Part shown: piece after piece, positions 38,256 to 61,640 of the stretch
Position numbering within the stretch: position 1 is the stretch's first letter
Layout: each line of letters opens with the position of its first letter
Source of the DNA: Flavihumibacter fluvii
GTDB lineage: Bacteria; Bacteroidota; Bacteroidia; Chitinophagales; Chitinophagaceae
Assembly (NCBI RefSeq): GCF_018595675.2
Contig: NZ_CP092333.1
Location: forward strand, 2,194,001-2,258,000
Direction of reading: 5' to 3'
Length of the DNA: 64,000 nt
Translations under genes and position numbers: made by a program
The notes under the pieces: generated by a model
What the model saw: only the letters and a program-made list of their open reading frames with translations
Database searches by the model: none
What the model was told of the DNA's origin: nothing

Positions 38256-40067
38256 CTATTCACCCAACCATCCTTTCAAAATAGCCCCCTGTAACGCATC
38301 CGGCTTTGACTGCCTGGTAATAGTGAATGTTTTTTCCTTTTTAATACCCAGGATAATGGTTTTATCCCAGGTTCTGCCCTCCGATACCAAACGGAGATTC
38401 AGCTGGTCTCCCGAATGTGCGGCACCGGCCAGTTCATTGAATTGACGCGCATTCACCGATTGCCCGTTTACCGATACAACGGCATACCCGCCCCGGATGC
38501 CTGCCTTCCATGCCGGGGATTCCCACTCAACATGGCTAACACGCAAGGTATCTTTTCTATCTGCCACTGCAATACCAGACCAGCCTTCCGGTAAAACACG
38601 GGTACTGGTATCGATCGCTAATCCCGCATAATTCAGGTAGGTCGTGTAATCCACCGGTTTTACCGTATAAATATAGTCGAAGAAATCCCCTAGAGAAACC
38701 CCGGCGATGGTTTCGGCCGCGTTACGGAATTCATCTTCGGTAAAGCCCCGGGCCTTTCCCTTATAATATTTTTGGTATAACAGCCGCATCAGGTCATCCA
38801 ATGATTTTTCATTTTTTGTTTCATGCCTGATCTTGAAATCCAATAATAATCCTAATGCCGGCCCTTTATCATAAGGTGAAATCGTCTTATAATAATCATC
38901 GCCGGTCCTGCCAAATGGTCCATCTTCCCAGGTCGAATAACTGGCTTCTGCAGGTGTCTGGAAGAATTTACCAGGTTTGTCTTCATAATTTTTAATGGCA
39001 GATTGAAATGAAGTGAAAACATCATCAGTAGTAATAAGGCCGGCCCTTTTAAGGATGAGGTTCTCATAGTAAACTGTAACGCCTTCTGAAAACCAAAGCA
39101 TTTTAGTCCGGCTGCCGTTGTCATAATCAAATGGACCAAGCTCAATGGGCCGGATGCGTTTTACATTATAATGGTGGAAGTATTCATGGGTTAAAAAATG
39201 ATATGTTCGCAACCTGGATGTAGGATCATTCAATTCTTTACCGGTAAAGGCAACCGATGTTGAGTTTAGGTGTTCAATGCCGCCGCCACCCGGACCAATA
39301 CCAATGAATGTATAGTGTTTGTAAGGCATCTCGCCGATGATGCCGGAAGCCGTGGTGATGATCCTTTTAAGGTCGGCCATCAGCAGGTTACGGTCAAACA
39401 GGTCGGCTTGATAAGCATAAAAATAATGCGGGATATTATTCACGGAAAAAGAAGGAAAGGAATCGAGGTTTCCGATCAGGACAGGGCAATCATATAATAT
39501 ATCAAAGTTGGGTGCAGAAAATGTATTTCCCTTTCCATTAACCGGATCCAGTCCGGTCGCAATAGCAGACCAGTTACCAAAAGGGGCAAACTGCACGGTT
39601 ACTTTTGTATTCAGGTGGTTGGCAGGATACAGGAAAGTACCTGGCGGGGAAATATAAGCCCTGTTGGGATCGACATAGTTTTTTGCAACGAAGGGTACGG
39701 TAGCAGCAATCGAATAAGTAATCACAAAAGACTGGTTGCCTTTTGTATGCACCATCCAGCCGTTCTTAGAGGACTTTCGCCAGCGGAGTAGTTTACCGCC
39801 TTTACCTGTAACCTGGAAATCAGCAACAAAGTTAGCAAAATTGAGCAACTGATAATACCCTGGGGTCCAGGCCGGCATTTTAAATTCCATGCTGTCTGTT
39901 TTTATGCCAGAACAAGACATAGCTACCTGAATCTTTTGAGCTTCGGGTCGTGGCATCGAGACGAAGAAAGTAATTGATTTATTTTTCTGCGCATAAACGG
40001 CCTGGGAAAGTCCTTTAGAAAGCAAAAAAATTATGGAAAATAATATAGCGGCTACAGCTGATTTCAT
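38256..40067 (-). CDS. M61-family metallopeptidase with PDZ domain
   Basis: The 603-residue exported peptidase has a signal peptide ending VYAQK, an N-terminal beta domain (about 30-190), a thermolysin-like catalytic domain with the zinc motif HEYFHHYNVKRIRP (near residue 300) and the third ligand region WFSEGVTVYYENL. A C-terminal PDZ domain follows (AVADRKDTLRVSHVEWES, GIRGGYAVVSVNGQ). M61 enzymes are glycyl aminopeptidases; the PDZ may guide substrate or chain ends. It is convergent with the DUF4382 gene. Role in peptide scavenging is an inference. Confidence 0.93.
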   Translation of the reverse strand: MKSAVAAILFSIIFLLSKGLSQAVYAQKNKSITFFVSMPRPEAQKIQVAMSCSGIKTDSMEFKMPAWTPGYYQLLNFANFVADFQVTGKGGKLLRWRKSSKNGWMVHTKGNQSFVITYSIAATVPFVAKNYVDPNRAYISPPGTFLYPANHLNTKVTVQFAPFGNWSAIATGLDPVNGKGNTFSAPNFDILYDCPVLIGNLDSFPSFSVNNIPHYFYAYQADLFDRNLLMADLKRIITTASGIIGEMPYKHYTFIGIGPGGGGIEHLNSTSVAFTGKELNDPTSRLRTYHFLTHEYFHHYNVKRIRPIELGPFDYDNGSRTKMLWFSEGVTVYYENLILKRAGLITTDDVFTSFQSAIKNYEDKPGKFFQTPAEASYSTWEDGPFGRTGDDYYKTISPYDKGPALGLLLDFKIRHETKNEKSLDDLMRLLYQKYYKGKARGFTEDEFRNAAETIAGVSLGDFFDYIYTVKPVDYTTYLNYAGLAIDTSTRVLPEGWSGIAVADRKDTLRVSHVEWESPAWKAGIRGGYAVVSVNGQSVNARQFNELAGAAHSGDQLNLRLVSEGRTWDKTIILGIKKEKTFTITRQSKPDALQGAILKGWLGE

Positions 40068-40268: not shown

Positions 40269-42413
40269 ATGCTGAGATTATTTACAGGCAGGCAGGCTAT
40301 TACCCTTTCGATGTATTGGACTATCGCTATAATAATACTATCCTGCAAAGAAAATATTGAACCCTATAATACCTGGCCGGTTTATCGTGGCGACAAAGGC
40401 AGTTCCGGATACTCATCCCTTTCCCAGATCAATACAGGCAACCTGGATAAACTTGAACTAGCCTGGACCTACCATTCGGGAGATGCCCGGGAAGGCAACA
40501 GGTCCAACATAGAATGTAACCCAATCATTGTAAACGGAATGATGTATGTGACATCCCCGAAACTGAAACTGGTTGCGCTGGACCCTGAAACGGGTAAAGA
40601 GATCTGGACCTTCGATCCTTTTCTAAACCAGGAAGCCACAGGGGTTAACCGCGGTGTCACCTATTGGTCTGATGGCAAAAAAGATAAAAGGATATTTTTT
40701 TCTGCAGGGCCATATGTTTATGCATTGCAGGCAGATCATGGAAATCTGGTCTCCGGTTTTGGCGATAGCGGAAGGATCGACCTCCGTATTGGATTAGGAA
40801 GAGACCCGGTAAAATTATCTGTCTGGAGTTCTTCGCCAGGAATCATCTATAAGAATTTATTGATCCAGGGCAGTGCTCTGGAAGAAGGCTATAATGCTGC
40901 GCCAGGTTTTGTGCGGGCGTATAATGTACAAACAGGGAAAGTAGCATGGACATTCAATACGATTCCCCAACCAGGCGAATTTGGTTATGATACCTGGGAA
41001 AAAAATTCTTACAAAGAAGTTGGCGGAACCAATTCATGGGCAGGCATGAGCATAGATGAAAAAAGGGGAATTGTTTTCATTCCACTTGGTTCACCTGCAT
41101 TTGATTTTTATGGTGGTAACCGGAAAGGGGAAAACCTGTTTGGAAATTGCCTGCTGGCTGTTGATGCAGCAACAGGGCAACGAAAATGGCATTACCAGCT
41201 CGTGCACCACGACCTGTGGGATTATGATTTACCGGCGCCGCCAACCCTGGTCACTGTTCAGCATGGAAATAAAAAAACTGAAGCAGTTGCCCAGGTCACA
41301 AAAATGGGAATGGTCTTCCTCTTCGACCGGATAACAGGCAAACCTTTATTTCCCATTGAAGAAAGGCCCGTACCCAAATCAAACCTGTTGGGCGAGGAAA
41401 CATGGGCCACACAACCATTCCCTTTAAAGCCTGTGCCATTTGTGCGGCAAAGTTTTTCTGAAAACGATATCACCAATATCTCAGATTCAGCACATGCGTT
41501 TATTAGAGCAAGGATTGGCAACAGCCAGCTGGGCAGCATTTTTACCCCACCAGATACCACAGGTGTCGTTCAGCTCCCAGGCACCCGTGGTGGCGCTGAA
41601 TGGGGTGGCGCCTCTTTCGATCCAGAAACTGGTATTTTATACGTTAATGCCAATGAACTTCCCCTGCTATTGAAAATGAAAGCCGTGCCTGTAAATGAGG
41701 AAAGCAGTTCCCCCGGAGAGAAAATATTTACTATGAATAACTGTGCCATGTGCCATGGTGCTAACCGCACAGGTACCAACGTATTTCCTTCCCTGCTCAA
41801 CCTGGCAGCAAGACTTAGTCCCGCAAAAGCCGACAGTATCATCCAGAATGGAAAAGGACAAATGCCTGCATTCCCTAACATCACCGGCGCAGAAAAAAAA
41901 GCTTTGCTTGACTTTCTTTACGATAAAAAGTGGAACCCTGTAATAACAAAAAACAACCATAGAGATAGTGCGAAACAATACCGCTATGTGAATAACGGAT
42001 GGGTGCAATTAACTGATCAAGATGGCTATCCCGGCATTAAGCCACCATGGGGAACTTTGAATGCCATCGACCTGAATAAGGGTGAAATTCTTTGGAAGAT
42101 CCCTCTCGGTGAATATGATGCATTAACCAAAAGAGGAATCCCGCCAACAGGTACGCAAAACCTGGGCGGCGCCATTGTAACTGCGGGCGGGTTGGTGATT
42201 ATTGCTGCAACAGCCGATGAAAAACTCAGGATATTCGATAAACGTACCGGCAAATTATTATGGCAGTACAAGTTACCTGCAGCAGGTTATGCAACCCCTT
42301 CCACTTACATGCTGAATGGTAAACAGTACATCGTTATCGCCGCAGGTGGCGGCGGGAAGGTTGGTACGCCATCTGGAGATGCCTATGTTGCTTTTTGCAT
42401 TAAGAACAATTAA
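40269..42413 (+). CDS. PQQ-dependent dehydrogenase lipoprotein with inserted cytochrome c
   Basis: The 714-residue protein has a lipoprotein leader (IAIIILSC, Cys near 25), so it faces the periplasm. It is a PQQ-type eight-bladed propeller (WPVYRGDKGSSGYS, ALDPETGKEIWTFDP, AINTLD-type repeats, and the closing GKLLWQYKLP). A cytochrome c domain is inserted at about 475-560, with CAMCH (Cys492, His496) and a distal Met in GQMPAFP. Sugar or alcohol oxidation would be coupled through the heme to the respiratory chain. It is the first gene of a tightly spaced run ending at 50004; GH88 begins 18 bases later. Exact substrate unknown. Confidence 0.9.
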   Translation: MLRLFTGRQAITLSMYWTIAIIILSCKENIEPYNTWPVYRGDKGSSGYSSLSQINTGNLDKLELAWTYHSGDAREGNRSNIECNPIIVNGMMYVTSPKLKLVALDPETGKEIWTFDPFLNQEATGVNRGVTYWSDGKKDKRIFFSAGPYVYALQADHGNLVSGFGDSGRIDLRIGLGRDPVKLSVWSSSPGIIYKNLLIQGSALEEGYNAAPGFVRAYNVQTGKVAWTFNTIPQPGEFGYDTWEKNSYKEVGGTNSWAGMSIDEKRGIVFIPLGSPAFDFYGGNRKGENLFGNCLLAVDAATGQRKWHYQLVHHDLWDYDLPAPPTLVTVQHGNKKTEAVAQVTKMGMVFLFDRITGKPLFPIEERPVPKSNLLGEETWATQPFPLKPVPFVRQSFSENDITNISDSAHAFIRARIGNSQLGSIFTPPDTTGVVQLPGTRGGAEWGGASFDPETGILYVNANELPLLLKMKAVPVNEESSSPGEKIFTMNNCAMCHGANRTGTNVFPSLLNLAARLSPAKADSIIQNGKGQMPAFPNITGAEKKALLDFLYDKKWNPVITKNNHRDSAKQYRYVNNGWVQLTDQDGYPGIKPPWGTLNAIDLNKGEILWKIPLGEYDALTKRGIPPTGTQNLGGAIVTAGGLVIIAATADEKLRIFDKRTGKLLWQYKLPAAGYATPSTYMLNGKQYIVIAAGGGGKVGTPSGDAYVAFCIKNN

Positions 42414-42431
42414 TTAAAACCAGGATTTTGT

Positions 42432-43814
42432 ATGATAAAAATAAACGAAGCACTTGCCCCCGAAGATCTTTCTTTAAAATTGGCACACTTCTGGCAAATT
42501 TCCGGCGAGAAGATCAACCTGATCAATCAACAGTATGACGAAACAAAAGGTTCACCGGTTTTTACCATCGATGGAAAATATACGACACGGGGCTGGACCG
42601 AATGGACACAGGGATTCCAGTACGGTTCCGAAATCTTGCAGTTTGAAGTTACCGGTGAGCAAAAATATTTGGATTCCGCCCGGAATAAAACCCTCACCAA
42701 AATGGCACCGCACATCAGCCACATAGGTGTGCATGACCATGGCTTTAATAATGTGAGCACCTATGGTAATTTATTGCGCCTGATGAAGGAAGGGAAAACC
42801 GGTTACAATGAATGGGAAAAAAATTTTTATGAACTCGCCTTAAAAATTTCCGGTGCTGTGCAGGCTTCTCGATGGACCACCATAAAAACCGGCGGTTTCA
42901 TCCATTCATTCAATGGCCCCCATTCATTATTTGTAGATACAGTCCGGTCTGTCCGGGCATTGTCCGTCAGCCATGTACTCGGGCATGTTTTCCAGGCGGA
43001 AGGTGATGTAAAGATCAACCTGCTGGAACGAGCCATTCAACACCTGCATGCCACTGCCAATTATTCAATATTCTATGGTGAGGGCCGCGACCGGTACGAC
43101 ACATGGGGCCGTACAGCGCATGAAAGTATTTTCAACATAAAAGACGGCAATTTCAGGTGCCCTAATTCACAGCAAGGTTATTCTGGATTTACCACCTGGA
43201 CAAGAGGGCTGGCCTGGGCCATGTGCGGGTTTCCCGAGCAACTCGAATGGCTCGACACTATTGAGGAAAAAACTTTTGAACCTTATGGAGGCAAGTCAGC
43301 CATTATGAATACCTGCCTGAAAGCTGCAAAAGCCACTTGTGATTATTATATCGAAAACACCCCCATAGACGGTATTCCTTATTGGGATACAGGGGCACCA
43401 AACCTGCATAAACTAGGTGACTACATGGGCAAATTGGCCAACCCGTTCAATGAGTATGAACCAGTAGATAGTTCTGCAGCAGCCATTGGTGCACAAGGAT
43501 TATTAAGGCTGGGCAATTTCCTTAGTAAAAAGGGCGATGTAAAAGCGGGTGGGCATTACCGGCAGGCAGGGTTATCTGTTCTGGATACATTACTGCAGGA
43601 GCCATATTTAAGTACAGATAAAGATCACCAGGGACTGTTGTTACATTCCATATACCACGAGCCCAATGGCTGGGACCATGTACCGAAAGGCAGTAAAATT
43701 GCCAACGGTGAATCATGCATGTGGGGGGATTACCATTTCCGGGAACTTTGTCTTTATGTGCAGCGCATGATCAATAAAGAAAACTATTATTGTTTCTTCA
43801 ATTGTGTACAATGA
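42432..43814 (+). CDS. GH88-like unsaturated glucuronyl hydrolase
   Basis: The 460-residue enzyme has no signal peptide, so it is cytoplasmic. It has the alpha6/alpha6 barrel signatures of GH88: TTRGWTEWTQGFQYG, IGVHDHGFNN with catalytic Asp102, FVDTVRSV with Asp169, TWTRGLAWAMCGF and DSSAAAIGAQGLLRLG. These residues match the two aspartates of unsaturated glucuronyl hydrolases, which hydrate the 4,5-double bond of lyase-produced oligosaccharides. No polysaccharide lyase is in the window. The stop overlaps the next gene's ATG in an ATGA. Its C-terminus ends about 60 residues beyond the core; no extra domain is obvious. GH105-type rhamnogalacturonyl activity is an alternative. Confidence 0.85.
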   Translation: MIKINEALAPEDLSLKLAHFWQISGEKINLINQQYDETKGSPVFTIDGKYTTRGWTEWTQGFQYGSEILQFEVTGEQKYLDSARNKTLTKMAPHISHIGVHDHGFNNVSTYGNLLRLMKEGKTGYNEWEKNFYELALKISGAVQASRWTTIKTGGFIHSFNGPHSLFVDTVRSVRALSVSHVLGHVFQAEGDVKINLLERAIQHLHATANYSIFYGEGRDRYDTWGRTAHESIFNIKDGNFRCPNSQQGYSGFTTWTRGLAWAMCGFPEQLEWLDTIEEKTFEPYGGKSAIMNTCLKAAKATCDYYIENTPIDGIPYWDTGAPNLHKLGDYMGKLANPFNEYEPVDSSAAAIGAQGLLRLGNFLSKKGDVKAGGHYRQAGLSVLDTLLQEPYLSTDKDHQGLLLHSIYHEPNGWDHVPKGSKIANGESCMWGDYHFRELCLYVQRMINKENYYCFFNCVQ

Positions 43815-44641
43815 GCGATCCCATTACCAATTTATCAAAGCTTTGCATCCATACCATCACTACAAAGCCCTGGCCTATTGAAACAGCTGCAGCAAATTTC
43901 GCTGTAAAAGGTGCTAAAGGAATGACCGTATGGCGTGATGCCCTGAACGGCAGGAATATCAAAGCAACCGGTGAAATGGTCAGGAGTCATGGACTTGAGA
44001 TCGTATCATTATGCCGAGGAGGATTTTTTCCAAATGCTGATCCTGTTAAAAGAAAGATCGCAATTGATGATAACCGCCGGGCCATTGAAGAGGCACATGA
44101 ACTGGGCACCAAAATGATTGTGCTGGTATGCGGATCAGATCCCACCCAACCATTAGAAACTTCGCGCGACCAGATACAGGAAGGTATTGCCACTATTATA
44201 CCCGATGCGGCCGCTGCGGGTATTCAACTGGCCATCGAGCCATTGCATCCCATGTACGCCGATAACCGTTCAGCTATCAACACGCTGGCCCAGGCCAATA
44301 CCATGACTGAAGTGCTGAACTCGCCCTGGGTAGGTGTTGCCATTGACGTATACCATCTCTGGTGGGACCCTGACCTCGAACAGGAAATCATCCGATGTGG
44401 AAAAAACAAAGCCTTACTGGCCTTTCATGTTTGCGACTGGAAATCGCCTACGACAGATTTTCTGAACGACCGTGGCCTGATGGGCGAAGGCTGTATTCCT
44501 ATTAAGAAAATAAGGGGCTGGGTAGAAGCAACAGGATTTAACGGTTTTAACGAAGTGGAAATATTCTCCACAGCATACTGGCAAACAGATCAATCCATAT
44601 TCCTGGATAATATTATAACAGCATACAAAAATTTCACTTAA
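43811..44641 (+). CDS. Cytoplasmic sugar phosphate isomerase/epimerase-like TIM barrel
   Basis: The 276-residue TIM barrel has no leader, unlike the three exported relatives at 21-27 kb. Metal-binding positions are visible (QLAIEPLHPMYADN, GVAIDVYHLWWDP, LLAFHVCDW, FNEVEIFS). The ATG at 43811 overlaps the GH88 stop by 4 bases, so translation is coupled. It probably isomerises or epimerises the product of its operon neighbours; hydroxypyruvate isomerase or tagatose epimerase-like chemistry is possible. Substrate not shown. Confidence 0.87.
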   Translation: MSDPITNLSKLCIHTITTKPWPIETAAANFAVKGAKGMTVWRDALNGRNIKATGEMVRSHGLEIVSLCRGGFFPNADPVKRKIAIDDNRRAIEEAHELGTKMIVLVCGSDPTQPLETSRDQIQEGIATIIPDAAAAGIQLAIEPLHPMYADNRSAINTLAQANTMTEVLNSPWVGVAIDVYHLWWDPDLEQEIIRCGKNKALLAFHVCDWKSPTTDFLNDRGLMGEGCIPIKKIRGWVEATGFNGFNEVEIFSTAYWQTDQSIFLDNIITAYKNFT

Positions 44642-44656
44642 ATAATTATACAATCT

Positions 44657-45802
44657 ATGACACAACATACAATAGGCATTATCATGAATGGGGTAACCGG
44701 CCGGATGGGTACCAACCAGCACCTGTTGCGCTCTATTGCTGAGATCATCAAACAAGGCGGCGTACAGATCAGTCCGGGCGAAACCATTATGCCCGATCCC
44801 ATCCTGATTGGCCGTGATGAAAACAAATTGAAAAAATTATGTAAGCTGACCGGTATCAATAAAATGAGCACCAATGTCGATGAAGCATTGGCTGATCCGC
44901 ATAACATCATTTATTTCGATGCACAGACAACGGGCAGAAGGGCCGATGCCGTGCGTAAGGCAGTTAAAGCCGGAAAACATATTTATTGTGAAAAACCCAT
45001 TGCTATAAGCACGCAGGTGGCTATGGAATTATATGACCTGTGCACCAAAGCCGGATTGAAGAATGGCGTAGTACAAGATAAGCTCTGGCTTCCGGGCATT
45101 GTTAAACTTAAGCGGCTGATCCAGCAGGGATTTTTTGGTCAAATACTTTCCATACGCGGGGAATTCGGGTATTGGGTATTTGAAGGTGATTCCATTGCAG
45201 CCCAGCGGCCTTCCTGGAATTACCGCAAGGAAGATGATGGTGGCATCATAGTAGATATGCTTTGCCACTGGCGTTACGTATTGGATGAAGTGTTTGGAAA
45301 AGTAAAAGCAGTGTCTTGCATGGGTACCACGCATATTAAGCAACGTGTAGATGAAAATGGCAAAGCTTATGCCTGTACTGCAGATGACGCTGCTTATGCT
45401 ACATTTGAACTGGAAGGCGGCATTATTGCACACTTCAATTCTTCCTGGGCAGTGCGGGTGCGTCGCGACGACCTGCTCACCCTGCAGGTGGATGGCACAA
45501 AAGGTTCTGCTGTAGCCGGTTTGCGGGAATGTTATACCCAACATTATGGCAATACACCGAAACCGGTCTGGAATCCCGATATTGAACAACCGATCAATTT
45601 CTATGAAGGATGGTCAAAGGTTCCCCAACAGGAGATCCATGACAATGCCTTTAAAGTACAGTGGGAATTATTTTTAAAACATGTGGTGAAAGACGAACCC
45701 TTTCCATGGAACCTGAAAGCAGGCGCGAAGGGTGTACAATTGGCTGAGAAGGGATTGGAAAGCTGGGCCAAAAGATGCTGGGTAGATATTCCGGAATTAT
45801 AA
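44657..45802 (+). CDS. Gfo/Idh/MocA-family oxidoreductase
   Basis: The 381-residue NAD(P)-dependent dehydrogenase has a Rossmann start (GIIMNGVTGRMGTN) and the family EKP motif (IYCEKPIAIS, near residue 115), followed by the alpha/beta substrate domain (YRKEDDGGIIVDMLCHWRYV). The VDMLCHW segment holds the usual catalytic Asp/His. No export signal. These enzymes oxidise a sugar hydroxyl, often to a keto sugar. It sits 15 bases after the TIM barrel and 10 before the SDR, so three successive genes could oxidise, isomerise and reduce one sugar. Confidence 0.9.
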   Translation: MTQHTIGIIMNGVTGRMGTNQHLLRSIAEIIKQGGVQISPGETIMPDPILIGRDENKLKKLCKLTGINKMSTNVDEALADPHNIIYFDAQTTGRRADAVRKAVKAGKHIYCEKPIAISTQVAMELYDLCTKAGLKNGVVQDKLWLPGIVKLKRLIQQGFFGQILSIRGEFGYWVFEGDSIAAQRPSWNYRKEDDGGIIVDMLCHWRYVLDEVFGKVKAVSCMGTTHIKQRVDENGKAYACTADDAAYATFELEGGIIAHFNSSWAVRVRRDDLLTLQVDGTKGSAVAGLRECYTQHYGNTPKPVWNPDIEQPINFYEGWSKVPQQEIHDNAFKVQWELFLKHVVKDEPFPWNLKAGAKGVQLAEKGLESWAKRCWVDIPEL

Positions 45803-45812
45803 TTGATAATAT

Positions 45813-46583
45813 ATGAAACAAGTCGCATTGGTTACAGGCGGAAGCAGGGGCATTGGATATGGTATCGTAAAACAGCTGGCCCAACTTGGTTTTGACCTGG
45901 CCATCAATGGTGTAAGGCCGGAAAATGAGGTTATAGAAGTAATGGACAACATAAAAGCATTGGGTGCTGGTGTGATTTACTGTCCCGGCAATGTGGCAAA
46001 AACAGCCGACCGGAAAAATATACTGCAGCAGGTCAAAGACCACTATAAAAAAATAAATATCCTGGTGAACAATGCCGGTATTGCACCCAGGGAAAGACGT
46101 GATATCCTGGCCACTTCTGAAGAAAGTTTTGATGAGGTGCTGGCAACCAACCTGAAATCCAACTATTTTCTAACGCAGGATGTGGCCAATTGGATGATCG
46201 AACAAAAAAATACTGATAATAATTATTCTGGTTGCATCATCAATATCTCTTCCATTTCAGCAACCGTAGCGTCTGTAAACCGGGGTGAGTATTGTATTTC
46301 AAAAGCAGGCATCAGTATGGCCACTCAACTTTTTGCTGTCCGCCTGGGTGAATACAATATCCCGGTATATGAAGTAAGGCCTGGTATCATCAGCACAGAC
46401 ATGACATCGGGCGTGAAGGATAAATATGATACCCTCATTGCAGATGGTTTATGTGTCCAGAAGCGGTGGGGGCTACCTGAAGATGTGGGAAAATGCGTAG
46501 GCGCTTTGGCAATGGGTAGTTTTCCCTATTCAACCGGCCAGGTTTTTATGGTTGACGGCGGATTAACTATCCCAAGATTATAA
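45813..46583 (+). CDS. Short-chain dehydrogenase/reductase
   Basis: The 256-residue classical SDR has the cofactor motif TGGSRGIGYG at residues 8-17, NNAG near 90, the catalytic Ser in NISSISATVAS and YCISK (YxxxK). The family includes 3-ketoacyl-ACP reductases and 2-keto-3-deoxy-gluconate 5-dehydrogenases (KduD); the operon context favours a sugar substrate over fatty acid synthesis. It starts 10 bases after the Gfo/Idh gene. Substrate is inferred only from neighbours. Confidence 0.9.
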   Translation: MKQVALVTGGSRGIGYGIVKQLAQLGFDLAINGVRPENEVIEVMDNIKALGAGVIYCPGNVAKTADRKNILQQVKDHYKKINILVNNAGIAPRERRDILATSEESFDEVLATNLKSNYFLTQDVANWMIEQKNTDNNYSGCIINISSISATVASVNRGEYCISKAGISMATQLFAVRLGEYNIPVYEVRPGIISTDMTSGVKDKYDTLIADGLCVQKRWGLPEDVGKCVGALAMGSFPYSTGQVFMVDGGLTIPRL

Positions 46584-46601
46584 ATAAATAAACAAGCTAT
46601 A

Positions 46602-48773
46602 ATGAAAATAAAATCTCATTTCATACTAACAGCATGTCTTTTGGTCGCATGCTGTATGCGTGTTTTTCCCGCACCACTACCCCATCCGTTTAAGATCCTT
46701 CCCCAACCCCAGCAAGTGACCCTGGCTGGCGGACAAGGTATGCAGGCTGACAAACTGATTCAGTTGTTCACTCAAGAGCATATAAAAGTACCTGTACTCG
46801 GTCCTATACTCTCCCGGCTTCTTGTTGCAAAAAAAGACGGGAAGGGAACACTCAGCCTTGTCCTCGATAAAACAACCTCCTCCATTTCTTCAGATGAAGG
46901 TTATATCTTAACGATCTCCGCCGAAAAAATAACCATCACTGCAAAAGGTGAAGCCGGATTATTCTATGGCTGCCAGTCACTGGAACAATTGCTGGAAGAT
47001 GCAAAAGCATACAAAAAACCCCTTCCTGCCTGTACGATTACGGACTACCCAACACTCGCCTACCGTGCTGTCCATTTTGATGTGAAACACCACCTGGACC
47101 ATATGAATTATTATTACGAAAGCATCGACAGGCTGGCACGTTATAAGATCAATGCCGTGGTATTTGAATATGAAGACAAACTCCGTTACCAGTTGCAGCC
47201 TCTTGTTGGAGCACCACAGAGCATTAGTATCGATGAAATGGCGGCCCTTACAAAATACGCGCGCCAGCGAAATATTGAAATCACGCCACTGGTGCAGGGA
47301 TTGGGTCATGCCACTTTTATTTTGAAACATGAGCAGTACGCCGGACTACGCGAATTACCCTGGAATGACTGGGCTTTCTGTCCATTACACGAAGGCACCT
47401 ATCAAGTATTATTTGATCTGTACAGGGATGCTATTAAAGCCACGCCCGGATCAAAATACCTGCATATCGGCGGGGATGAAATTGGGAATATCGGTTTGTG
47501 CCCCCGGTGCAAACCAACTGCCGATAAGGAAGGCATAATGGCACTGAATCTGTACTGGTTGAAAAGGGTTTGTGAATTTGCAAAAGACAATAACCGCATC
47601 CCGATTTTCTGGGATGATATGCCCCTGCAACATGCAGGTTTATACAAAACAACCTGGAGTGATGAAGTAACAGCATCAGAGGCCGAAGAGGCCTGGAAAA
47701 AAGGGGTTTCCGTACTCGACAGCCTCCAGACAGATTTCCCCAAGAACTGTGTGTATATGCGCTGGAATTATTCCATGGCCACGCAACCCGGGAATATCCA
47801 TGCACTGGACTGGTACCAGAAAAACGGATTAAAGGCGATGATCGCTACTGCCACCAATGCAGAAGGCGGTATGTTATTCCAGGCAGATGAACGCAACAAG
47901 GGAATGGCGTCATCTGGCATTGTTTCTATCAGGAGTTTTATACAACTGGCAGCACAAAAAAGCATTTCAGGCATGCTTTGTACAGCCTGGGATGATAAAT
48001 CCCCACACATGGAAAATTACTGGCGGGGGTTTATTGCAGCTGCTGAATACAGCTGGTCACCCAAAGGCCGGAATCTGGAAGAATACGATGAAGCCTGGGC
48101 CCAGAAAGAGTTTGGCACAGCCATTAAAAACTACTCCAGTTTAAATGAACAATTAAGAAGCGGATCGGTCTTGTGGTACGAAGCCCTTTTCAAAAATGGC
48201 AACCTCCTTGATGATGATAATGGCCTTCAAAGCATGAAGCAGGTGGAACATTGGCTAAAGCCTCTGGAAGGACAGGAAAAAAGGCAGTTTGATTATACTA
48301 CAAAACTGATTGAATTACCAGACCTGAAATCGCCTGGAACATGGAGTAAAAAATATAGTGAGAAGCTAAACAGGTCTGCTACGCAAATAAATAATTACGA
48401 AGCATTATCTCGACAACTGCAGGAAATACAATACAATTCCACCAGGAATAAATATTACTGGCGACTTGCAGCAGCTTTACACCGGTTCCAAACATCGACC
48501 CCCCGGATACTGGTAGCCTTGAAACAATGCGACCAGGCAGGAGAGGCTGCACAGAAAACCGGATTTGATGCAGTACATAAAGCAATTGGTGAATTCCACC
48601 AAAGCTGGTCAGCCTTGCAGGATGTGTATAGTGAAACAAGATTCATTACCTATCCCTCAAATTATGTGAAGGACAGGTATTTCCATTTGGCCAGCCAGCG
48701 CGAAGACCTCTCCTGGATGGTACAGGCACAGCAATTATATGAAGGAATGATCACCAAATGGATGACCAAATAA
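46602..48773 (+). CDS. GH20-like beta-hexosaminidase
   Basis: The 723-residue exported enzyme starts with a signal peptide (MKIKSHFILTACLLV to VFPAP); the LVAC within it could alternatively be a lipobox. The N-terminal GH20b-type domain (ILPQPQQVTLAGGQG, AGLFYGCQSLEQLL) precedes a TIM barrel with catalytic Asp292-Glu293 in HIGGDE. The long C-terminal helical domain (about 480-723) is atypical. The barrel is diverged (VVFEYEDKLRYQ replaces the usual H-L-T-D-D strand), so its specificity may not be N-acetylhexosamine. It sits between the SDR and the MFS gene. Confidence 0.83.
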   Translation: MKIKSHFILTACLLVACCMRVFPAPLPHPFKILPQPQQVTLAGGQGMQADKLIQLFTQEHIKVPVLGPILSRLLVAKKDGKGTLSLVLDKTTSSISSDEGYILTISAEKITITAKGEAGLFYGCQSLEQLLEDAKAYKKPLPACTITDYPTLAYRAVHFDVKHHLDHMNYYYESIDRLARYKINAVVFEYEDKLRYQLQPLVGAPQSISIDEMAALTKYARQRNIEITPLVQGLGHATFILKHEQYAGLRELPWNDWAFCPLHEGTYQVLFDLYRDAIKATPGSKYLHIGGDEIGNIGLCPRCKPTADKEGIMALNLYWLKRVCEFAKDNNRIPIFWDDMPLQHAGLYKTTWSDEVTASEAEEAWKKGVSVLDSLQTDFPKNCVYMRWNYSMATQPGNIHALDWYQKNGLKAMIATATNAEGGMLFQADERNKGMASSGIVSIRSFIQLAAQKSISGMLCTAWDDKSPHMENYWRGFIAAAEYSWSPKGRNLEEYDEAWAQKEFGTAIKNYSSLNEQLRSGSVLWYEALFKNGNLLDDDNGLQSMKQVEHWLKPLEGQEKRQFDYTTKLIELPDLKSPGTWSKKYSEKLNRSATQINNYEALSRQLQEIQYNSTRNKYYWRLAAALHRFQTSTPRILVALKQCDQAGEAAQKTGFDAVHKAIGEFHQSWSALQDVYSETRFITYPSNYVKDRYFHLASQREDLSWMVQAQQLYEGMITKWMTK

Positions 48774-48804
48774 TATTCAACCCCAGCATTAATCATAAAC
48801 AAAT

Positions 48805-50004
48805 ATGCCAACTGAAAAATTAACTAAAGGCCAGTATAAAGTAGCTGCCACCGGATTTTTAAGTTTGTTCTCGATCGTTGGCATTATGTTCTATGGATTA
48901 CCCTTCTTCTTTGATTTCTGGGTAAAAGATTTTGGATGGACACGGGCCACGGTTACCTCAGGAAATGTTTTCGGCAAAGTGATCATCGGGCCATTATTCG
49001 GTTTTGCCGCCGGATGGATCGTGGACCGATTCGGACCTAAACGATTGATGTTGTTTGGGATCTTTATTTGTGGCATGGCCGTAATCGGGCTAAGTAAAAT
49101 GAACTCGCTGTTTGAGTTCTATGCATTGTACATGCTGATGGCATTAGGTTATATGTGCGGTGGCCCATTGCCCAACCAGGTATTGACATCAAGGTGGTTC
49201 AATAAATCCCGGGGAAAGGCCATGGGATTTGCTTACCTGGGTATCGGCATTGGCGGTATGCTGGTACCGCAGATCGCCAGGTGGCTGAACAAGCAAATGG
49301 ACTGGCGTTCATCCCTGGTCATGCTGGGTAGTTTGATGATTCTGGTGGCGTTACCCATGGCTTTGTTTGTAAAGGAAAACCCTGCAGATAAAACAACCGA
49401 AGATAAGCTCAATAATCCCGCTATTCCTTTCAGTAGTATCTTAAAAAACAGGTCTTTCTATTTTTTGGCGCTTGGCAGTATGTGTTCAATCGGAGCGGTG
49501 GCCGGTGTAAGCCAGAACCTTAAATTATTTTTCAGTCTTGATTTAAAATACAGCCAAAGTGAAGCAGCCAATGTGATCTCATTGGTTCTGGGCGCCAGTA
49601 TCATAGGCAGATTACTCATGGGCTGGCTGGCCGACAGATATTCCAAGAAATATGTGATGATGCTCATTTACACACTGATCTCACTGTCTATCGTGCTGTT
49701 ATTCTTTGTGCAAACCCCGGGTGTCATATATCTGTTTGCCTTAATTTTCGGAATTGGTCTAGGTGGCGATTACATGATCATCCCGTTGATGGCAGCAGAA
49801 TTATTTGGTATTAAAGTGATGGGCCGGGTTATGGGCCTTGTATTAACCGTGGATGGATTAGCTGAAGCATTTGGACCTGTTCTTGCCGGATGGTTAAGGG
49901 ATCGTAATGGTAGTTATGCCATTGGGTTCTCTGCATTGATCCTTTTATCAGTTATCGGCACATTTGCTGTCTGGATGTTACCTGCAAAAAAGACTCTCCA
50001 ATAA
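48805..50004 (+). CDS. MFS transporter
   Basis: The 399-residue inner-membrane carrier has 12 predicted helices with a cytoplasmic loop near residue 200 (FVKENPADKTTEDK). The MFS motif A-like loop AGWIVDRFGPKRL lies after helix 2, and RWFNKSRGKAMGF and WLADRYSKKYVMM after helices 4 and 8. The organisation resembles the oxalate/formate and monocarboxylate carrier group, so an acidic sugar is a reasonable substrate. It is the last gene of the PQQ-GH88 run, 31 bases after the GH20-like gene, and could import the product of the periplasmic dehydrogenase. Confidence 0.9.
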   Translation: MPTEKLTKGQYKVAATGFLSLFSIVGIMFYGLPFFFDFWVKDFGWTRATVTSGNVFGKVIIGPLFGFAAGWIVDRFGPKRLMLFGIFICGMAVIGLSKMNSLFEFYALYMLMALGYMCGGPLPNQVLTSRWFNKSRGKAMGFAYLGIGIGGMLVPQIARWLNKQMDWRSSLVMLGSLMILVALPMALFVKENPADKTTEDKLNNPAIPFSSILKNRSFYFLALGSMCSIGAVAGVSQNLKLFFSLDLKYSQSEAANVISLVLGASIIGRLLMGWLADRYSKKYVMMLIYTLISLSIVLLFFVQTPGVIYLFALIFGIGLGGDYMIIPLMAAELFGIKVMGRVMGLVLTVDGLAEAFGPVLAGWLRDRNGSYAIGFSALILLSVIGTFAVWMLPAKKTLQ

Positions 50005-50013
50005 TCCGGTAAT

Positions 50014-52425
50014 TCATTCTGTGGCAGGAACACCATGCCAGACACTGGAACCATAGGTGGTGATGAACACCTTTTCAGGATTATACTGATCAACAATTAC
50101 CCGATGTCCCCAATGGAAATCGTAATCCCTGAGTTTTTTCCAGCTCTTACCCCGGTCATCGCTTCGCCAGGCAACTTTATTATAGGTATTGCAATATAGC
50201 CTGCCGGGATGATGTGGATCAGCTGTTACATCATAAACATACTGTTTCTGGTCAAAAATGGAAGTCCAGCTGTCACCACCATCCACCGATAAAAATATTC
50301 CTCCAGGCATATCCAACAATTTATTGCCACCGGCTTCGCGGACAACATCACCACCAACGAGGTCGCTTAAGCTGATGGCAGCCCAGCAAGCCAGGTAAAT
50401 GCGTTTGGGATCATCCGGGTCAATTTCCATTCCATTCGGGAATAACAGTCCTTTGCTGATAGTTAATTTGGTCCAGGTTTCAGCACCATCCGTAGAACGG
50501 TAAACAGCCCCTGAATAAAAAGCCGGCCCCTTTTTGCCATCTTTATGTGCAGGGGTTGGACTAACGGTGAGGTACAAGTTTCCATTTGAAGCCAGTGTCA
50601 GTTCAAAAGCACAGGTATTGCTATCAATGCCTTTGTTTTTTATTTGCCAGGTCTTGCCATCATCAATTGACTTGAACACTCCCTTATTGTATACAGCGGC
50701 ATACAAAGTACGGCGACTAATAGCCGATTTTGGGTCAAGGACAATTGAAGTGGCTGGGGAATTCATACCCATGCCTTCAACTGTGGGTTTCCATGTTCTT
50801 CCGCCATCTGTTGATACACAAACCCCACCGCGGCCTTTATCCTTCCACTGAGGATTGCGGGTCATTTTACCCCGGGGAAAATCATGAAGTCCAGACCATA
50901 CTGACCATACCTTGTTTTTAACACCCGGGTCAAAAACCACCCAGTAACAGGTATTCACCCAATCAGATGGGACACCGGCTGCCGAACGTTTCCAGCTTTT
51001 TCCACCATCATAAGAATGGTGATACCCAATATCAGTATAACTTATTGCCAGGTGGCTGCTATCATAGGGATCGAAATGCACACCGTAGGTAGTCGTAACA
51101 TCCATGCCCCGGCTGGTATAGGTGGTATCCGGATTCATATGGCTGTAAATTTCCTGCCAGGTAATTCCACCATCCATGGTTTTCATGGTACGGTACCAAT
51201 CTGTAACAATAGCAATATTTCCATCTCGAGGTGATACTCCTGCGTCGAACAATTGAATGAACTCACCACCAAAAGCTTTGTGGACCCAGGCATCGTTCAG
51301 ATTAGGTGCATCTGTCGCGTCCTGCACACCGTATTGCCCGGAACCGCCGCCACCCTTCCAGACCCAATGCCAGGATTTACCGGCATCACTTGTTTTTAAG
51401 GCTCCATACCAGTCAATCAATTTATCGGATAATAATTTTTCCTGGTACCGGTTGGTTACTACATATGCATTGGCCGCATCAAACTCAGAACAATTGATCA
51501 TGCTGAGACTGGGTGATATACCCAGGTACCCATTGGTGATCACAGTATCATTATTCTTTTCCCAGGTAAGTCCAAGGTCTTTAGAGGACCAAACTTCACT
51601 ATGCCCGAAATCCCAGGGGTTTTGCTTTTTGAAATCATGGTGCAGTGCATACAGCATGGTTGCTGATGAATTCTTCAGAGTACCGGCAGTAAAGGAATAG
51701 GCCGGTGACATGGATACAGGGATCTCCCTGGCAGTAATTCTTTTTGAATCCTTATTGAAAATAAAGACCTTTTCCTGAGTAAAAATATACAGGTCGTTTT
51801 TAGCGGCACCGGTATTCGTGTATAAATAATCAATGTGGTAGCCGAGGTTCTCTTTTGACCAGGAATCACCTGCATTGGTAGAATAAAAAAAATAGTTGCC
51901 CATTGAAAAATACAGGGAACCTGATTTCGAAGGATCAACGCGAATAGTGGATATTTTTTCCGGTTCTTTTACATACAGGGATGTATTCTCAGTTGTGATT
52001 TCATATTCAGCATGATCGCCAATATAAATTTCGCTGGTGACCTCTGATTTCTTTGGGAATATTTGTGTCCAGCTTTTCCCGCCATCCGCCGACCTGTGCA
52101 ATACTGCCGATCCTAAATATATTGAATTCGAATCAACCGGATCAAAAGCATAACAAGAAGTCCCACCCGCAATATTTATTAACTGGTAGCTGTTGCCACC
52201 ATCTTTAGTAAGGTAAGAACCGGTCATATCACAACGGACCATGAACATATCCGGAGTATGGTAGGAAAAACGTGGAATGAATGTAGAGCCACCACCACCT
52301 GGACCAATTCTTTGCCAGGTGCCGGACTCGGGTAATGCAACGGCTTTTTGTGTGGCTGGCTTACAATTCATTATTAAAATAAAGAGAGAAATATACAGGC
52401 AGGTTTTATAGGCACATTTAAGCAT
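50014..52425 (-). CDS. Asp-box (BNR) beta-propeller lipoprotein
   Basis: The 803-residue protein has a lipoprotein leader (LFILIMNC, Cys near 21) and at least eleven Asp-box motifs of the S-x-D-x-G-x-x-W type (RSADGGKSW, STNAGDSW, SSKDLGLTW, KTSDAGKSW, KTMDGGITW, YDGGKSW, STDGGRTW, SIDDGKTW, STDGAETW, VDGGDSW, RSDDRGKSW). Such repeats form two propellers, as in GH74 xyloglucanases and related exo-enzymes. GH74 catalytic aspartates cannot be assigned with confidence. Position next to the sugar operon suggests glycan binding or hydrolysis at the cell surface. It is 17 bases downstream of the esterase gene on the same strand. Confidence 0.85.
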   Translation of the reverse strand: MLKCAYKTCLYISLFILIMNCKPATQKAVALPESGTWQRIGPGGGGSTFIPRFSYHTPDMFMVRCDMTGSYLTKDGGNSYQLINIAGGTSCYAFDPVDSNSIYLGSAVLHRSADGGKSWTQIFPKKSEVTSEIYIGDHAEYEITTENTSLYVKEPEKISTIRVDPSKSGSLYFSMGNYFFYSTNAGDSWSKENLGYHIDYLYTNTGAAKNDLYIFTQEKVFIFNKDSKRITAREIPVSMSPAYSFTAGTLKNSSATMLYALHHDFKKQNPWDFGHSEVWSSKDLGLTWEKNNDTVITNGYLGISPSLSMINCSEFDAANAYVVTNRYQEKLLSDKLIDWYGALKTSDAGKSWHWVWKGGGGSGQYGVQDATDAPNLNDAWVHKAFGGEFIQLFDAGVSPRDGNIAIVTDWYRTMKTMDGGITWQEIYSHMNPDTTYTSRGMDVTTTYGVHFDPYDSSHLAISYTDIGYHHSYDGGKSWKRSAAGVPSDWVNTCYWVVFDPGVKNKVWSVWSGLHDFPRGKMTRNPQWKDKGRGGVCVSTDGGRTWKPTVEGMGMNSPATSIVLDPKSAISRRTLYAAVYNKGVFKSIDDGKTWQIKNKGIDSNTCAFELTLASNGNLYLTVSPTPAHKDGKKGPAFYSGAVYRSTDGAETWTKLTISKGLLFPNGMEIDPDDPKRIYLACWAAISLSDLVGGDVVREAGGNKLLDMPGGIFLSVDGGDSWTSIFDQKQYVYDVTADPHHPGRLYCNTYNKVAWRSDDRGKSWKKLRDYDFHWGHRVIVDQYNPEKVFITTYGSSVWHGVPATE

Positions 52426-52442: not shown

Positions 52443-53360
52443 CTATTTTTTTATGATCCATCCATTAGCGGCCATCCAGTTAAATACGGCACCCATCCAC
52501 TCATCAGTAGGTATTCCTAATACAAAACCATGATCGCCTTTTGGAAAAAGGTGCATTTCTGCGGGTACTTTTTTTCGCAGTAGAGCTTTGTAAAAAAGTA
52601 TACTATTATCCACCACCACTACTTTATCATCGCCGCTATGCGTTATCCAGGCTGGTGGTGTTTTTTCATTTACGTGCAATTCATTGGAGAAATCCTGTAT
52701 TATTTCTGCGGTGGGATGTTCACCCAGCAGGTTTTGTCTTGAACCAGCATGTGTAAGGCTATCAGCCATACTGATCACCGGGTATACCAATACCATGAAA
52801 TCGGGTCGAAGGTTGGTCATTTCAGGATTAGGAATAAAAGCTTTGTTAAAATGTGTACCGGCAGTCGAAGCAAGATGCCCGCCGGCAGAAAATCCCATAA
52901 TGCCTACCTTATTGATATCAACTCCCCATTGTTTGGCATTATCCCGCACCAGTTTAATGGCCTGCTGGGCATCCTGTAATGGCCCGATACTTTTTACTGC
53001 CATAATGGAATCAGATGGCAGGCGATACTTCAGGATAAAAGCAGCAATACCATGCCTGGCAAAAGTTTTGGCTATTTTGGTCCCTTCCAGCCGGTAACTT
53101 AACATCCCATATCCTCCACCCGGACAAATCACTACTGCAGCGCCACTGACCTTTTCTTTATCCGGCAGGAAAATCTCCAATGTCGGTTGCGAAACATTCT
53201 GGTAGCCACCAAATTCTCCATCCCAATACAAGGTGGTTTCCTTCATAGCATAGGGTATGGAATTGGGTATGGCCTGCCCGTACAATGAGATGATCTTTTG
53301 TGCATACAGGCTAAGGGAAAGAATTGTAAAAACGCCAGAAATTAAGAATTGCTTTTTCAT
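52443..53360 (-). CDS. Exported alpha/beta hydrolase (BD-FAE-like esterase)
   Basis: The 305-residue enzyme has a signal peptide (MKKQFLISGVFTIL to LYAQK) and a serine-hydrolase core: oxyanion-hole CPGGGYGMLSY, nucleophile in GFSAGG, Asp in HSGDDKVVVVDN and His in GDHGF. It resembles xylan esterases and BD-FAE feruloyl esterases. The start is the ATG at 53358-53360; 13 open codons upstream precede the signal peptide. It is upstream of the propeller gene and probably co-transcribed. Sugar-ester substrate is an inference from family and context. Confidence 0.88.
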   Translation of the reverse strand: MKKQFLISGVFTILSLSLYAQKIISLYGQAIPNSIPYAMKETTLYWDGEFGGYQNVSQPTLEIFLPDKEKVSGAAVVICPGGGYGMLSYRLEGTKIAKTFARHGIAAFILKYRLPSDSIMAVKSIGPLQDAQQAIKLVRDNAKQWGVDINKVGIMGFSAGGHLASTAGTHFNKAFIPNPEMTNLRPDFMVLVYPVISMADSLTHAGSRQNLLGEHPTAEIIQDFSNELHVNEKTPPAWITHSGDDKVVVVDNSILFYKALLRKKVPAEMHLFPKGDHGFVLGIPTDEWMGAVFNWMAANGWIIKK

Positions 53361-53494
53361 AATTACGTTTATAAAAGACAAGTTCAGGAAGCTTCTCACT
53401 ACTGAAAATACAATTAGAATCCGGGCTTTTCAATGATTTGTCGCAACATCTTTCCTGTTCATCTCATTTTGAAATCAGCAGTAAAGAAGGAAGG

Positions 53495-60584: not shown

Positions 60585-61640
60585 ATGAAAAAAATCTTGC
60601 TGTTGGTAACGCTTTTCGCAACAATTATTAGTCCCGGTTGTCACAACCAACCGGCAAAGGTTCCTGGAAATGAACTGGTTAACGATAGTATGCCTGGCAG
60701 GATTGAAATATATGACCCGCAGGCCATTCCCTTGATAGACAGTAATGCAACGATAGAAATAATTGGCAGAAATTATACCTGGTCTGAAGGCCCGGTATGG
60801 CTACCTGCTGAAAAGGCGCTGATTTTTTCCGATGTTCCGGAGAATAAGATATACATGTGGAAACCAGGTGGTACAGTTTCCTTGTTTTTGACACCTTCAG
60901 GTTATACAGATACAGCAAAACGTGATGGTGAAAATGGATCCAATGGCCTTGCGCTTGACAAAGAGGGCCATTTGCTGCTTTGCCAATCGGGTAATAGGAT
61001 GGTTGCCCGTTTAAACAGTTCTTTTCTCGCACCAAAACCCGAGTTTACCATCCTGTCCGCCAACTATAATGGAAAGCGGTTCAACAGTCCAAATGATCTG
61101 GTTGCAGACAGCAGGAACAATATTTATTTTACTGATCCAATCTACGGTTTGCCCTTACATGAAAATGATCCCACCAGAGAATTATCGTTTGAAGGAGTGT
61201 ATAAAATCAGTCCGGATGGAACCACCACATTGTTGATAGACACTATTAAAAGGCCCAATGGCATTGCCCTGTCCCCAGATGAAAAGACCTTATATGTTGC
61301 GAGCAGCGATAGTGAACACCCCCGTTGGCTAGCTTACAAGTTGAATGATGCAGGTCAAATATTAAGCGGAGGTGTACTCCTCGATGCTACCGACATAATA
61401 AAAATGGCCACGGTAAAACAAGGGGCTGATGGATTTAAAGTTGATAACCTGGGTAATATTTTTAGTTCCGGGCCTGATGGCGTGAACATCATTTCACCTG
61501 AGGGAAAGCGATTGGCGCTGATCAAAATTTATAACCGGAGTACTTCCAATTGTGCATTTAATGAAACAAAAGATATTCTTTTCATCACGGCAGATGATGT
61601 TGTGCTAAAAGTGACACTTCATCCAAAAATCAGCCAATAA
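60585..61640 (+). CDS. SMP-30/gluconolactonase-like lipoprotein
   Basis: The 351-residue protein has a lipoprotein leader (ATIISPGC, Cys near 19) and a six-bladed SMP-30-type propeller. Metal ligands are visible: Glu in WSEGPVW, Asn in NSPNDLVAD, Asn in RPNGIALSPDE and Asp in YVASSDSE. This family hydrolyses sugar lactones such as gluconolactone in the periplasm, with a divalent metal. A lactone would be the expected product of a PQQ sugar dehydrogenase such as the one at 40269, but the genes are 18 kb apart. It is divergent from the CstB-like gene. Confidence 0.88.
   Translation: MKKILLLVTLFATIISPGCHNQPAKVPGNELVNDSMPGRIEIYDPQAIPLIDSNATIEIIGRNYTWSEGPVWLPAEKALIFSDVPENKIYMWKPGGTVSLFLTPSGYTDTAKRDGENGSNGLALDKEGHLLLCQSGNRMVARLNSSFLAPKPEFTILSANYNGKRFNSPNDLVADSRNNIYFTDPIYGLPLHENDPTRELSFEGVYKISPDGTTTLLIDTIKRPNGIALSPDEKTLYVASSDSEHPRWLAYKLNDAGQILSGGVLLDATDIIKMATVKQGADGFKVDNLGNIFSSGPDGVNIISPEGKRLALIKIYNRSTSNCAFNETKDILFITADDVVLKVTLHPKISQ

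Follow-up and report, generated by a model that had tools for sequence, protein, structure and literature searches.

A seven-gene cluster of Flavihumibacter fluvii with a recurring GH88-like core and a possible role in the catabolism of acidic glycosides

What could a bacterium break down with a quinoprotein, a GH88-like protein, three isomerase- or dehydrogenase-type enzymes, a GH20-type hydrolase and a carrier encoded side by side? This question is raised by seven genes at positions 40269 to 50004 of a 64-kb stretch of the Flavihumibacter fluvii genome (contig NZ_CP092333.1, positions 2,194,001 to 2,258,000; in the following, the window), the host genome being a single contig of 5.0 Mb. A first-pass annotation of the letters alone had proposed an oxidative glycoside-catabolic operon without SusC/SusD, in which oxidation of a sugar outside the cell would precede its import and intracellular breakdown. 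We read the cluster as an operon for the catabolism of a small acidic glycoside, probably of the uronide type, and give this reading a rough probability of 0.38. Four of the genes form a conserved core, and the outer genes are swapped for unrelated equivalents in relatives.

Re-reading of the open reading frame (ORF) coordinates returned the same seven plus-strand genes with exactly the intergenic gaps given before (18, -4, 15, 10, 18 and 31 bases), and domain searches bore out all seven families, with refinements for the pyrroloquinoline quinone (PQQ) protein and the GH88-like match (Table 1). The third gene starts with an ATG at 43811 and overlaps the second by 4 bases; the ORF listing has an upstream TTG at 43790. 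Both flanking genes (38256-40067 and the BNR/sortilin-like gene of Table 1) lie on the minus strand. Co-transcription of the seven genes is proposed from their spacing only; a promoter/terminator scan gave no clear excess over shuffled sequences (24 vs 21.7 +/- 4.9; 15 vs 10.8 +/- 3.6). The absence of SusC/SusD also held, as tblastn with five SusC/SusD queries gave zero matches across the 64-kb window, which thus lacks the SusC/SusD pair of a polysaccharide utilization locus; a SusC/SusD-like match is present somewhere in 9 of 94 relatives' loci.

The GH88-like protein and its conserved neighbours

The second gene encodes a GH88-like (alpha/alpha)6 protein (GH88L), which is probably cytoplasmic, no signal being seen by eye. 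Its score lies below the Pfam GH88 gathering score (25.6 vs 26.6 bits); solved unsaturated glucuronyl hydrolases (UGLs) match it clearly in hmmsearch (1vd5, Table 1), and the top Foldseek matches of its model are GH88 UGLs (3wiw, E 4e-7, TM 0.56/0.68), so that both methods relate its (alpha/alpha)6 fold to that of solved UGLs. In HMMER alignments W58, H230, Q248, W256, R258 and W262 of GH88L fall on W42, H193, Q211, W219, R221 and W225 of UGL, and D102 pairs with D115 of the Streptococcus enzyme. Support for D102 as the first acid comes from the PDB entry 3vxd, which names the D115N mutant of that UGL in its title. D169 falls on the second conserved Asp of the family in a MAFFT alignment with nine paralogs. 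The residues D102, D169, H230, Q248, R258, W58, W256 and W262 are conserved in 12/12 orthologs and 9/9 paralogs; for this count 9 of 15 GH88 paralog loci were used, the other six having no frame by the rule of the script. We take D102 and D169 to be the catalytic acidic pair, equivalent to D88 and D149 in the Bacillus enzyme, and we presume uronate-site roles for the other GH88L residues; the accessible text of PMC3827465 assigns no roles to UGL residues. In view of its Pfam score we class GH88L as GH88-like, in a separate subfamily within the same fold group with the catalytic residues kept, rather than as an established GH88 member. As these UGL residues are retained, an acidic, uronide-type substrate is favoured, and a uronate end-group is pointed to as the target of GH88L.

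To see how far the gene set extends, relatives were counted in several samples. GH88L orthologs occur in 15 of 195 genomes of the family, host included, at 191.9 bits or more (one is a contig-end fragment), and the next match falls to 65.7 bits and 29% identity, a sharp family boundary. In the phylum sample they occur in 29 of 395 genomes (E <= 1e-80), down to 48% identity; three other sampled genomes of the same genus (G008, G108, G179) have none. Gene order was read in named loci, the best 80 of at least 561 relatives from a genome-collection scan, mostly Bacteroidota by title. Of 80 loci, namely the window and 79 named ones, 55 make up a full-flank set, window included; 25 whose downstream frames span under 6.5 kb were excluded, and L075, in which the ORF filter left no core frame, was also left out. 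The loci are not independent, many being from Dyadobacter and Spirosoma, and as the family and named loci share some contigs, the counts quoted are those of the named loci plus the window. Two counting rules were used, either within 7 kb on either strand or within the same-strand run around GH88L, the latter giving lower counts.

The isomerase/epimerase-type TIM barrel (TIM), the Gfo/Idh/MocA oxidoreductase (GFO) and the short-chain dehydrogenase/reductase (SDR) follow GH88L directly in 34 of the 55 full-flank loci, window included, and TIM and GFO both lie within 7 kb in 37; as the ORF filter miscalls some frames, GFO itself was found in 40 and TIM in 37. Among 14 family loci, nine have the complete GH88L-TIM-GFO-SDR order on one strand, and the remaining five show contig-end cuts, a reversed SDR or a flavoprotein. 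By this recurrence, which exceeds chance, GH88L, TIM, GFO and SDR form a conserved four-gene core. The whole seven-gene set was met in the window alone, both among the window plus 79 named loci and among the 14 family loci. Conservation of the operon, a check suggested in the first-pass annotation, therefore stands for the four-gene core and fails for the full set, the PQQ dehydrogenase and GH20 being lineage-specific accessories.

Table 1. Genes of the cluster and its downstream neighbours, with positions counted within the window.
Feature	Coordinates	Strand	Support	Status
PQQ-dependent dehydrogenase with inserted cytochrome c domain	40269..42413	+	PF01011 1.6e-195; cytochrome c at residues 482-550	
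GH88L, GH88-like (alpha/alpha)6 protein	42432..43814	+	profile vs 1vd5 E 5e-14	core gene
TIM, AP_endonuc_2 isomerase/epimerase-type TIM barrel	43811..44641	+	PF01261 9e-39	core gene
GFO, Gfo/Idh/MocA oxidoreductase	44657..45802	+	PF22725/PF02894/PF01408	core gene
SDR, short-chain dehydrogenase/reductase	45813..46583	+	PRK12745 353.7 bits, cut-off 250	core gene
GH20-type glycoside hydrolase	46602..48773	+	PF00728 4.8e-18 and PF02838 (GH20b)	accessory gene
MFS carrier, best model L-lactate type	48805..50004	+	PF07690 2e-44; NCBIfam SfMCT 146 bits, cut-off 320	
BNR/sortilin-like protein	50014..52425	-	PF15902, PF02012	convergent with operon
BD-FAE / pectin-acetylesterase-like esterase	52443..53399	-	PF20434 1.8e-26; PaeX model 228 bits, cut-off 550	

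The solved relatives closest to the other three core proteins carry generic names (3qc0, 3ju2 and 7vpf for TIM; 3oqb, E 3.7e-151, for GFO; 4da9 and 4one for SDR), and a search of the open-access literature by PDB code gave, among the matches listed, only papers unrelated by title. Near-invariant positions are present in all three: E/D/H/E in TIM (58 sequences), which we take to be the acid and histidine positions expected of metal-dependent isomerases, E112-K113 and D200/H204 in GFO (61 sequences) and Y160/K164 in SDR (69 sequences), the motifs of the latter two being presumed to have their usual meaning. SDR reaches 133 bits with two KduD models (cut-offs 338.85 and 369). The isomerase-type gene of the cluster is a PF01261 TIM barrel and thus neither KduI nor DhuI. 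In 13 of the 55 full-flank loci (L053, L055, L056, L059, L062, L067, L070, L073, L074, L077, L087, L093, L095) an old-yellow-enzyme-like flavoprotein (PF00724, about 481 aa) lies between GH88L and SDR where TIM and GFO would otherwise be; flavoprotein and GFO never co-occur, and two loci (L090, L122) have neither. Three flavoprotein frames read have a Lys at what we take to be the position of the first catalytic His of old yellow enzymes. A distinct signal-bearing TIM barrel (C11) lies near some flavoprotein loci.

Exchange of the outer genes

The first protein unites a PQQ propeller with a heme c domain, both models scoring above cut-off; the cytochrome c domain, with a CAMCH motif, sits within the propeller sequence, and the closest solved structures are quinohemoprotein alcohol dehydrogenases. 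It is predicted to carry out the periplasmic oxidation step and, from a signal judged by eye, is possibly a lipoprotein. Quinoproteins lie within 7 kb of the core in 10 of the 55 full-flank loci, three of the window's PQQ type and seven cytochrome c-GSDH fusions, which have another quinoprotein fold. Same-strand runs contain a quinoprotein in seven loci, six with the fusion and one, the window, with the PQQ type. When exported-type Gfo/Idh proteins (export signal judged by eye on examples) are counted as well, 32 loci have a quinoprotein or such a protein within 7 kb, and 23 have any of these oxidoreductases in the same-strand run. The host genome has four PQQ-propeller loci, one more weak match and 13 GSDH matches. 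A pqqC model matched 0/14 core genomes, but the controls, including the hoped-for positive S. meliloti Ak57 pSymB, were equally silent.

The importer slot shows similar exchange. The carrier of the window, a member of the major facilitator superfamily (MFS), is closest to lactate, bile-salt, phosphoglycerate and oxalate/formate carrier models, every one below cut-off. A carrier lies within 7 kb in 41 of the 55 loci and in the same-strand run in 35, and three families fill the slot, namely two MFS types and one sodium:solute symporter; carriers of the window type (MFSw) adjoin the core in four loci, window included. Oxidation outside the cell followed by import, as proposed before, gains from these exchanges, as non-homologous quinoproteins and three carrier families occupy the same slots in some relatives, and two unrelated quinoprotein folds in the same place support oxidation outside the cell. 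The wider logic of oxidation, import and dismantling inside is thus supported in part, namely for its first two steps.

GH20 has the GH20 catalytic domain and the motif GGDE, presumably holding the catalytic D-E pair, and is predicted to be exported from a signal judged by eye. No counterpart was found beside the core in the other loci examined. Ranking the 195 family genomes by GH20 score, self excluded, puts six core-bearing ones (G081, G059, G028, G123, G142, G112) at the top, which has a genus-level chance of 3e-5, and of 5e-4 if G112 is left out; the cut at six was picked after the ranking had been seen, G112 scoring 92 bits and the next genome, the coreless G119, 90 bits. Close blastp relatives with long frames are those of L151 (38%) and L152 (39%), with a short piece in L158 (40%), and the remaining six GH20 loci belong to a subfamily of 25-29% identity. 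In L156, from core genome G123, the GH20 relative has a 49% PQQ dehydrogenase and a 57% MFS relative in its vicinity; in L158 (G142) GH20 and a 49% PQQ dehydrogenase stand head to head; and in L152 (G059) the gene after GH20 encodes a 60% relative of the convergent BNR protein of the window. The stretch L156:637-18500, a second locus of its core-bearing genome, groups an exported-type Gfo, a GSDH-cytochrome c, GH20, a PQQ dehydrogenase, a transglutaminase-like protein and the MFS relative. The window operon may thus have brought together two gene sets that are able to occur separately within a single genome.

Alternatively, the PQQ dehydrogenase, GH20 and MFS genes could have been inserted around a real core pathway and serve a separate substrate. 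The single sighting of the seven-gene set would fit, as would G123, in which the core and the GH20-PQQ-MFS set are on different contigs. We regard this as improbable, as all genes of the window form one tight unit, the best GH20 relatives are in core genomes, and carriers of the window type stand beside the core in 4/55 loci and, at 57% identity, beside GFO in Gemmatirosa.

A putative uronide pathway and its rivals

For a small acidic, probably uronide-type glycoside, the following pathway can be proposed. The PQQ-cytochrome c dehydrogenase would oxidise a sugar hydroxyl or an aldose in the periplasm and pass the electrons to the respiratory chain, GH20 would trim the substrate outside the cell, and the MFS carrier would import the acid. 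Inside, GH88L would add water to the enol ether at an unsaturated uronate end, thereby splitting the molecule; TIM and GFO (or the flavoprotein replacing them) and SDR would isomerise and reduce keto-acids towards 2-keto-3-deoxygluconate, to be finished by KDG/KDPG-type aldolases. Oxidation outside and import are the better supported steps; that GH20 trims the substrate, and which fragments TIM, GFO and SDR each act on, is guesswork. A gene for UxuA follows SDR in L054, which we count for the uronide reading; the PF01081 aldolase is found in 13/14 core genomes, but also in 8/14 controls. A more far-reaching version, which we consider unlikely, is that GH88L-TIM-GFO-SDR constitutes a third route to unsaturated uronates besides the KduI and DhuI types, with the TIM/Gfo pair or the flavoprotein as isomerase-reductase, and that periplasmic quinoprotein oxidation feeds it in some lineages, coupling respiration to glycan breakdown outside the cell.

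Several observations weigh against the uronide reading. The AlphaFold model of GH88L is of modest confidence (pLDDT 66.6), and for carriers, TIM and GFO even the top NCBIfam models stay far under their cut-offs. A recognised quinoprotein is absent from the same-strand run in 48/55 loci, which is the main evidence against its being essential, and the window's PQQ type is nearby but separate from the core in L065 and L096. Eight of the 14 non-self core genomes (G107, G098, G063, G038, G183, G158, G043, G129) have no close GH20. Nothing recognisable as a lyase or uronate dehydratase that could generate the unsaturated uronide turned up among the genes examined, no systematic search having been made. 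KduI-family genes are present elsewhere in 7/14 core genomes, host included (G000:C1:4673265-4674026), so that the host probably has a classical unsaturated-uronate isomerase elsewhere in its genome and TIM is not needed for the classical route in these genomes; TIM as a simple KduI substitute was rejected on this ground. Genes for PF06439 (3-keto-disaccharide hydrolase) occur close to the core in L071 and close to GFO in the Gemmatirosa locus L133.

The last point leads to a 3-keto-glycoside route, in which oxidation at C3 and import would be followed by beta-elimination by TIM, hydration of the 2-hydroxy-3-keto-glucal by GH88L and reduction of 3-keto-glucose by GFO or SDR. The order of oxidation, elimination, hydration and reduction with Gfo and TIM-type enzymes has been published (PMC10628242, PMC10066097), and DUF1080 proteins (the old name of PF06439) have been tied to periplasmic 3-keto-glycoside hydrolysis (PMC9007349), as far as the accessible parts of these articles go. 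Exported-type Gfo/Idh proteins, with the BT_2158 glycoside 3-dehydrogenase as best model (175.7 bits, cut-off 750), occur in 17/55 loci and genes related to PF06439 in 4/55; in L068 a GMC oxidoreductase follows the carrier. The route is a strong rival, to which we give somewhat less weight than to the uronide reading, as GH88L retains the uronate-site residues of UGL and both acidic residues, the top models of the window carrier are acid carriers, there is no eliminase among seven solved TIM matches, and one flavoprotein in place of TIM and GFO fits elimination plus reduction poorly. Among the seven genes of the window PF06439 is absent, and the BT_2158 model is not among the GFO matches.

Relatives outside Bacteroidota were also compared. 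GFO (57-65%) and TIM (37-50%) relatives lie near each other in Sinorhizobium, Nitratireductor, Chimaeribacter, Erwinia, Paracoccus and Gemmatirosa, and in Pseudomonas silvicola a 40% GFO relative adjoins TIM (43%); in two haloarchaea and one Arthrobacter GFO is without TIM in the fetched stretch. Genes annotated as dihydrodipicolinate-synthase family, in fact DUF993 (PF06187), accompany them in Sinorhizobium, Nitratireductor, Erwinia and Paracoccus, with one in Gemmatirosa; no paper was found under the name DUF993 in the open-access literature. Enolase-like or mandelate racemase genes stand by GFO and TIM in Sinorhizobium and Nitratireductor, the latter also having a tripartite tricarboxylate carrier, and in Gemmatirosa the 57% MFS relative and the PF06439 gene occur together with GFO. 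These contexts point to both sugar acids and 3-keto sugars. On pSymB of Sinorhizobium a TetR-GFO-DUF993-mandelate racemase-TIM-Gfo cluster (L131:9191-15922) probably encodes a sugar-acid pathway that has GFO and TIM in common with the window.

An E. coli cluster (L144:8107-14156) with SDR, TIM-barrel, enoyl-CoA hydratase, CoA transferase and FAD protein genes was matched in 3143/5426 genomes; it has relatives of the window SDR (39%) and TIM (42%). The presence of both beside CoA-transferase and enoyl-CoA hydratase genes would suit a pathway for cyclic acids (quinate/shikimate-like) or aldarates with TIM, SDR and GFO as its basis, as would the best NCBIfam model of the PQQ protein (glucose/quinate/shikimate family) and that of the carrier MFS4 (aromatic-acid symport), both below cut-off. 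As GH88L and GH20 would have no obvious role in it, we hold such a pathway to be highly improbable.

Downstream of the cluster, the convergent BNR/sortilin-like protein possibly shares the regulon of the operon, and the esterase behind it is a possible accessory. Further on are a GH127-like protein (54059-56059), whose top NCBIfam model is aceric acid hydrolase, far under cut-off, and, about 10 kb downstream of the operon, an SMP-30/gluconolactonase-type gene (60585-61640), the product of which could open lactones produced by a quinoprotein.

Comparison with known systems

The cluster is a real and conserved catabolic module that appears to be undescribed, with lineage-specific additions in the window. 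In agreement with the first-pass annotation, which knew of no described pathway with exactly this set of genes, none was found among the matches listed from the open-access literature, related pathways being the most that came up. About 7% of the Bacteroidota genomes sampled have the GH88L core gene, to which that literature assigns no substrate, and the core enzymes look small and soluble and are open to direct study. If uronide use holds true, a quinoprotein-linked route would stand beside SusC/SusD glycan uptake as an alternative in Bacteroidota, and surveys counting only KduI and DhuI would overlook the module.

Known modules for unsaturated uronates pair KduI or DhuI with KduD or DhuD (PMC12838403). 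According to the accessible part of that article, they resemble the window in uniting a GH88-type hydrolase with isomerase-type and short-chain reductase genes, and they feed 2-keto-3-deoxygluconate; the window differs in having a TIM barrel instead of KduI or the RpiB-like DhuI, in adding Gfo/Idh, the MFS carrier and the quinoprotein, and in lacking SusC/SusD. PUL25 of Bacteroides caccae, in which, as far as the article is accessible, a glucuronate dehydratase serves GH88 (PMC12269599), likewise combines a GH88 of Bacteroidota with a hexosaminidase (there GH109) in one locus; that locus further encodes a PL35 lyase and a GH154 dehydratase, enzymes not recognised in the window operon, where no systematic search was made. 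Ulvan dehydratase is another maker of unsaturated uronide, according to the accessible text (PMC8511951). The Agrobacterium glycoside operon (PMC10628242) and the levoglucosan operon (PMC10066097) share with the window an initial sugar oxidation and Gfo/Idh and TIM-barrel partners; they have two TIM-type proteins, and GH88, GH20 and a quinoprotein are unmentioned in the accessible text. The rhizobial, rhodobacterial and enterobacterial GFO-TIM clusters (L131, L135, L136, L137, L139) resemble the window in GFO (57-63%) and TIM (39-50%) lying near each other, and differ in that GH88L and a close core SDR are missing from the fetched stretches, DUF993 occurs in 4/5 (none annotated in L136) and enolase-like genes in two. 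Set beside these systems, the enzyme families of the window are known ones, and what appears to be new is their combination and their pattern of exchange.

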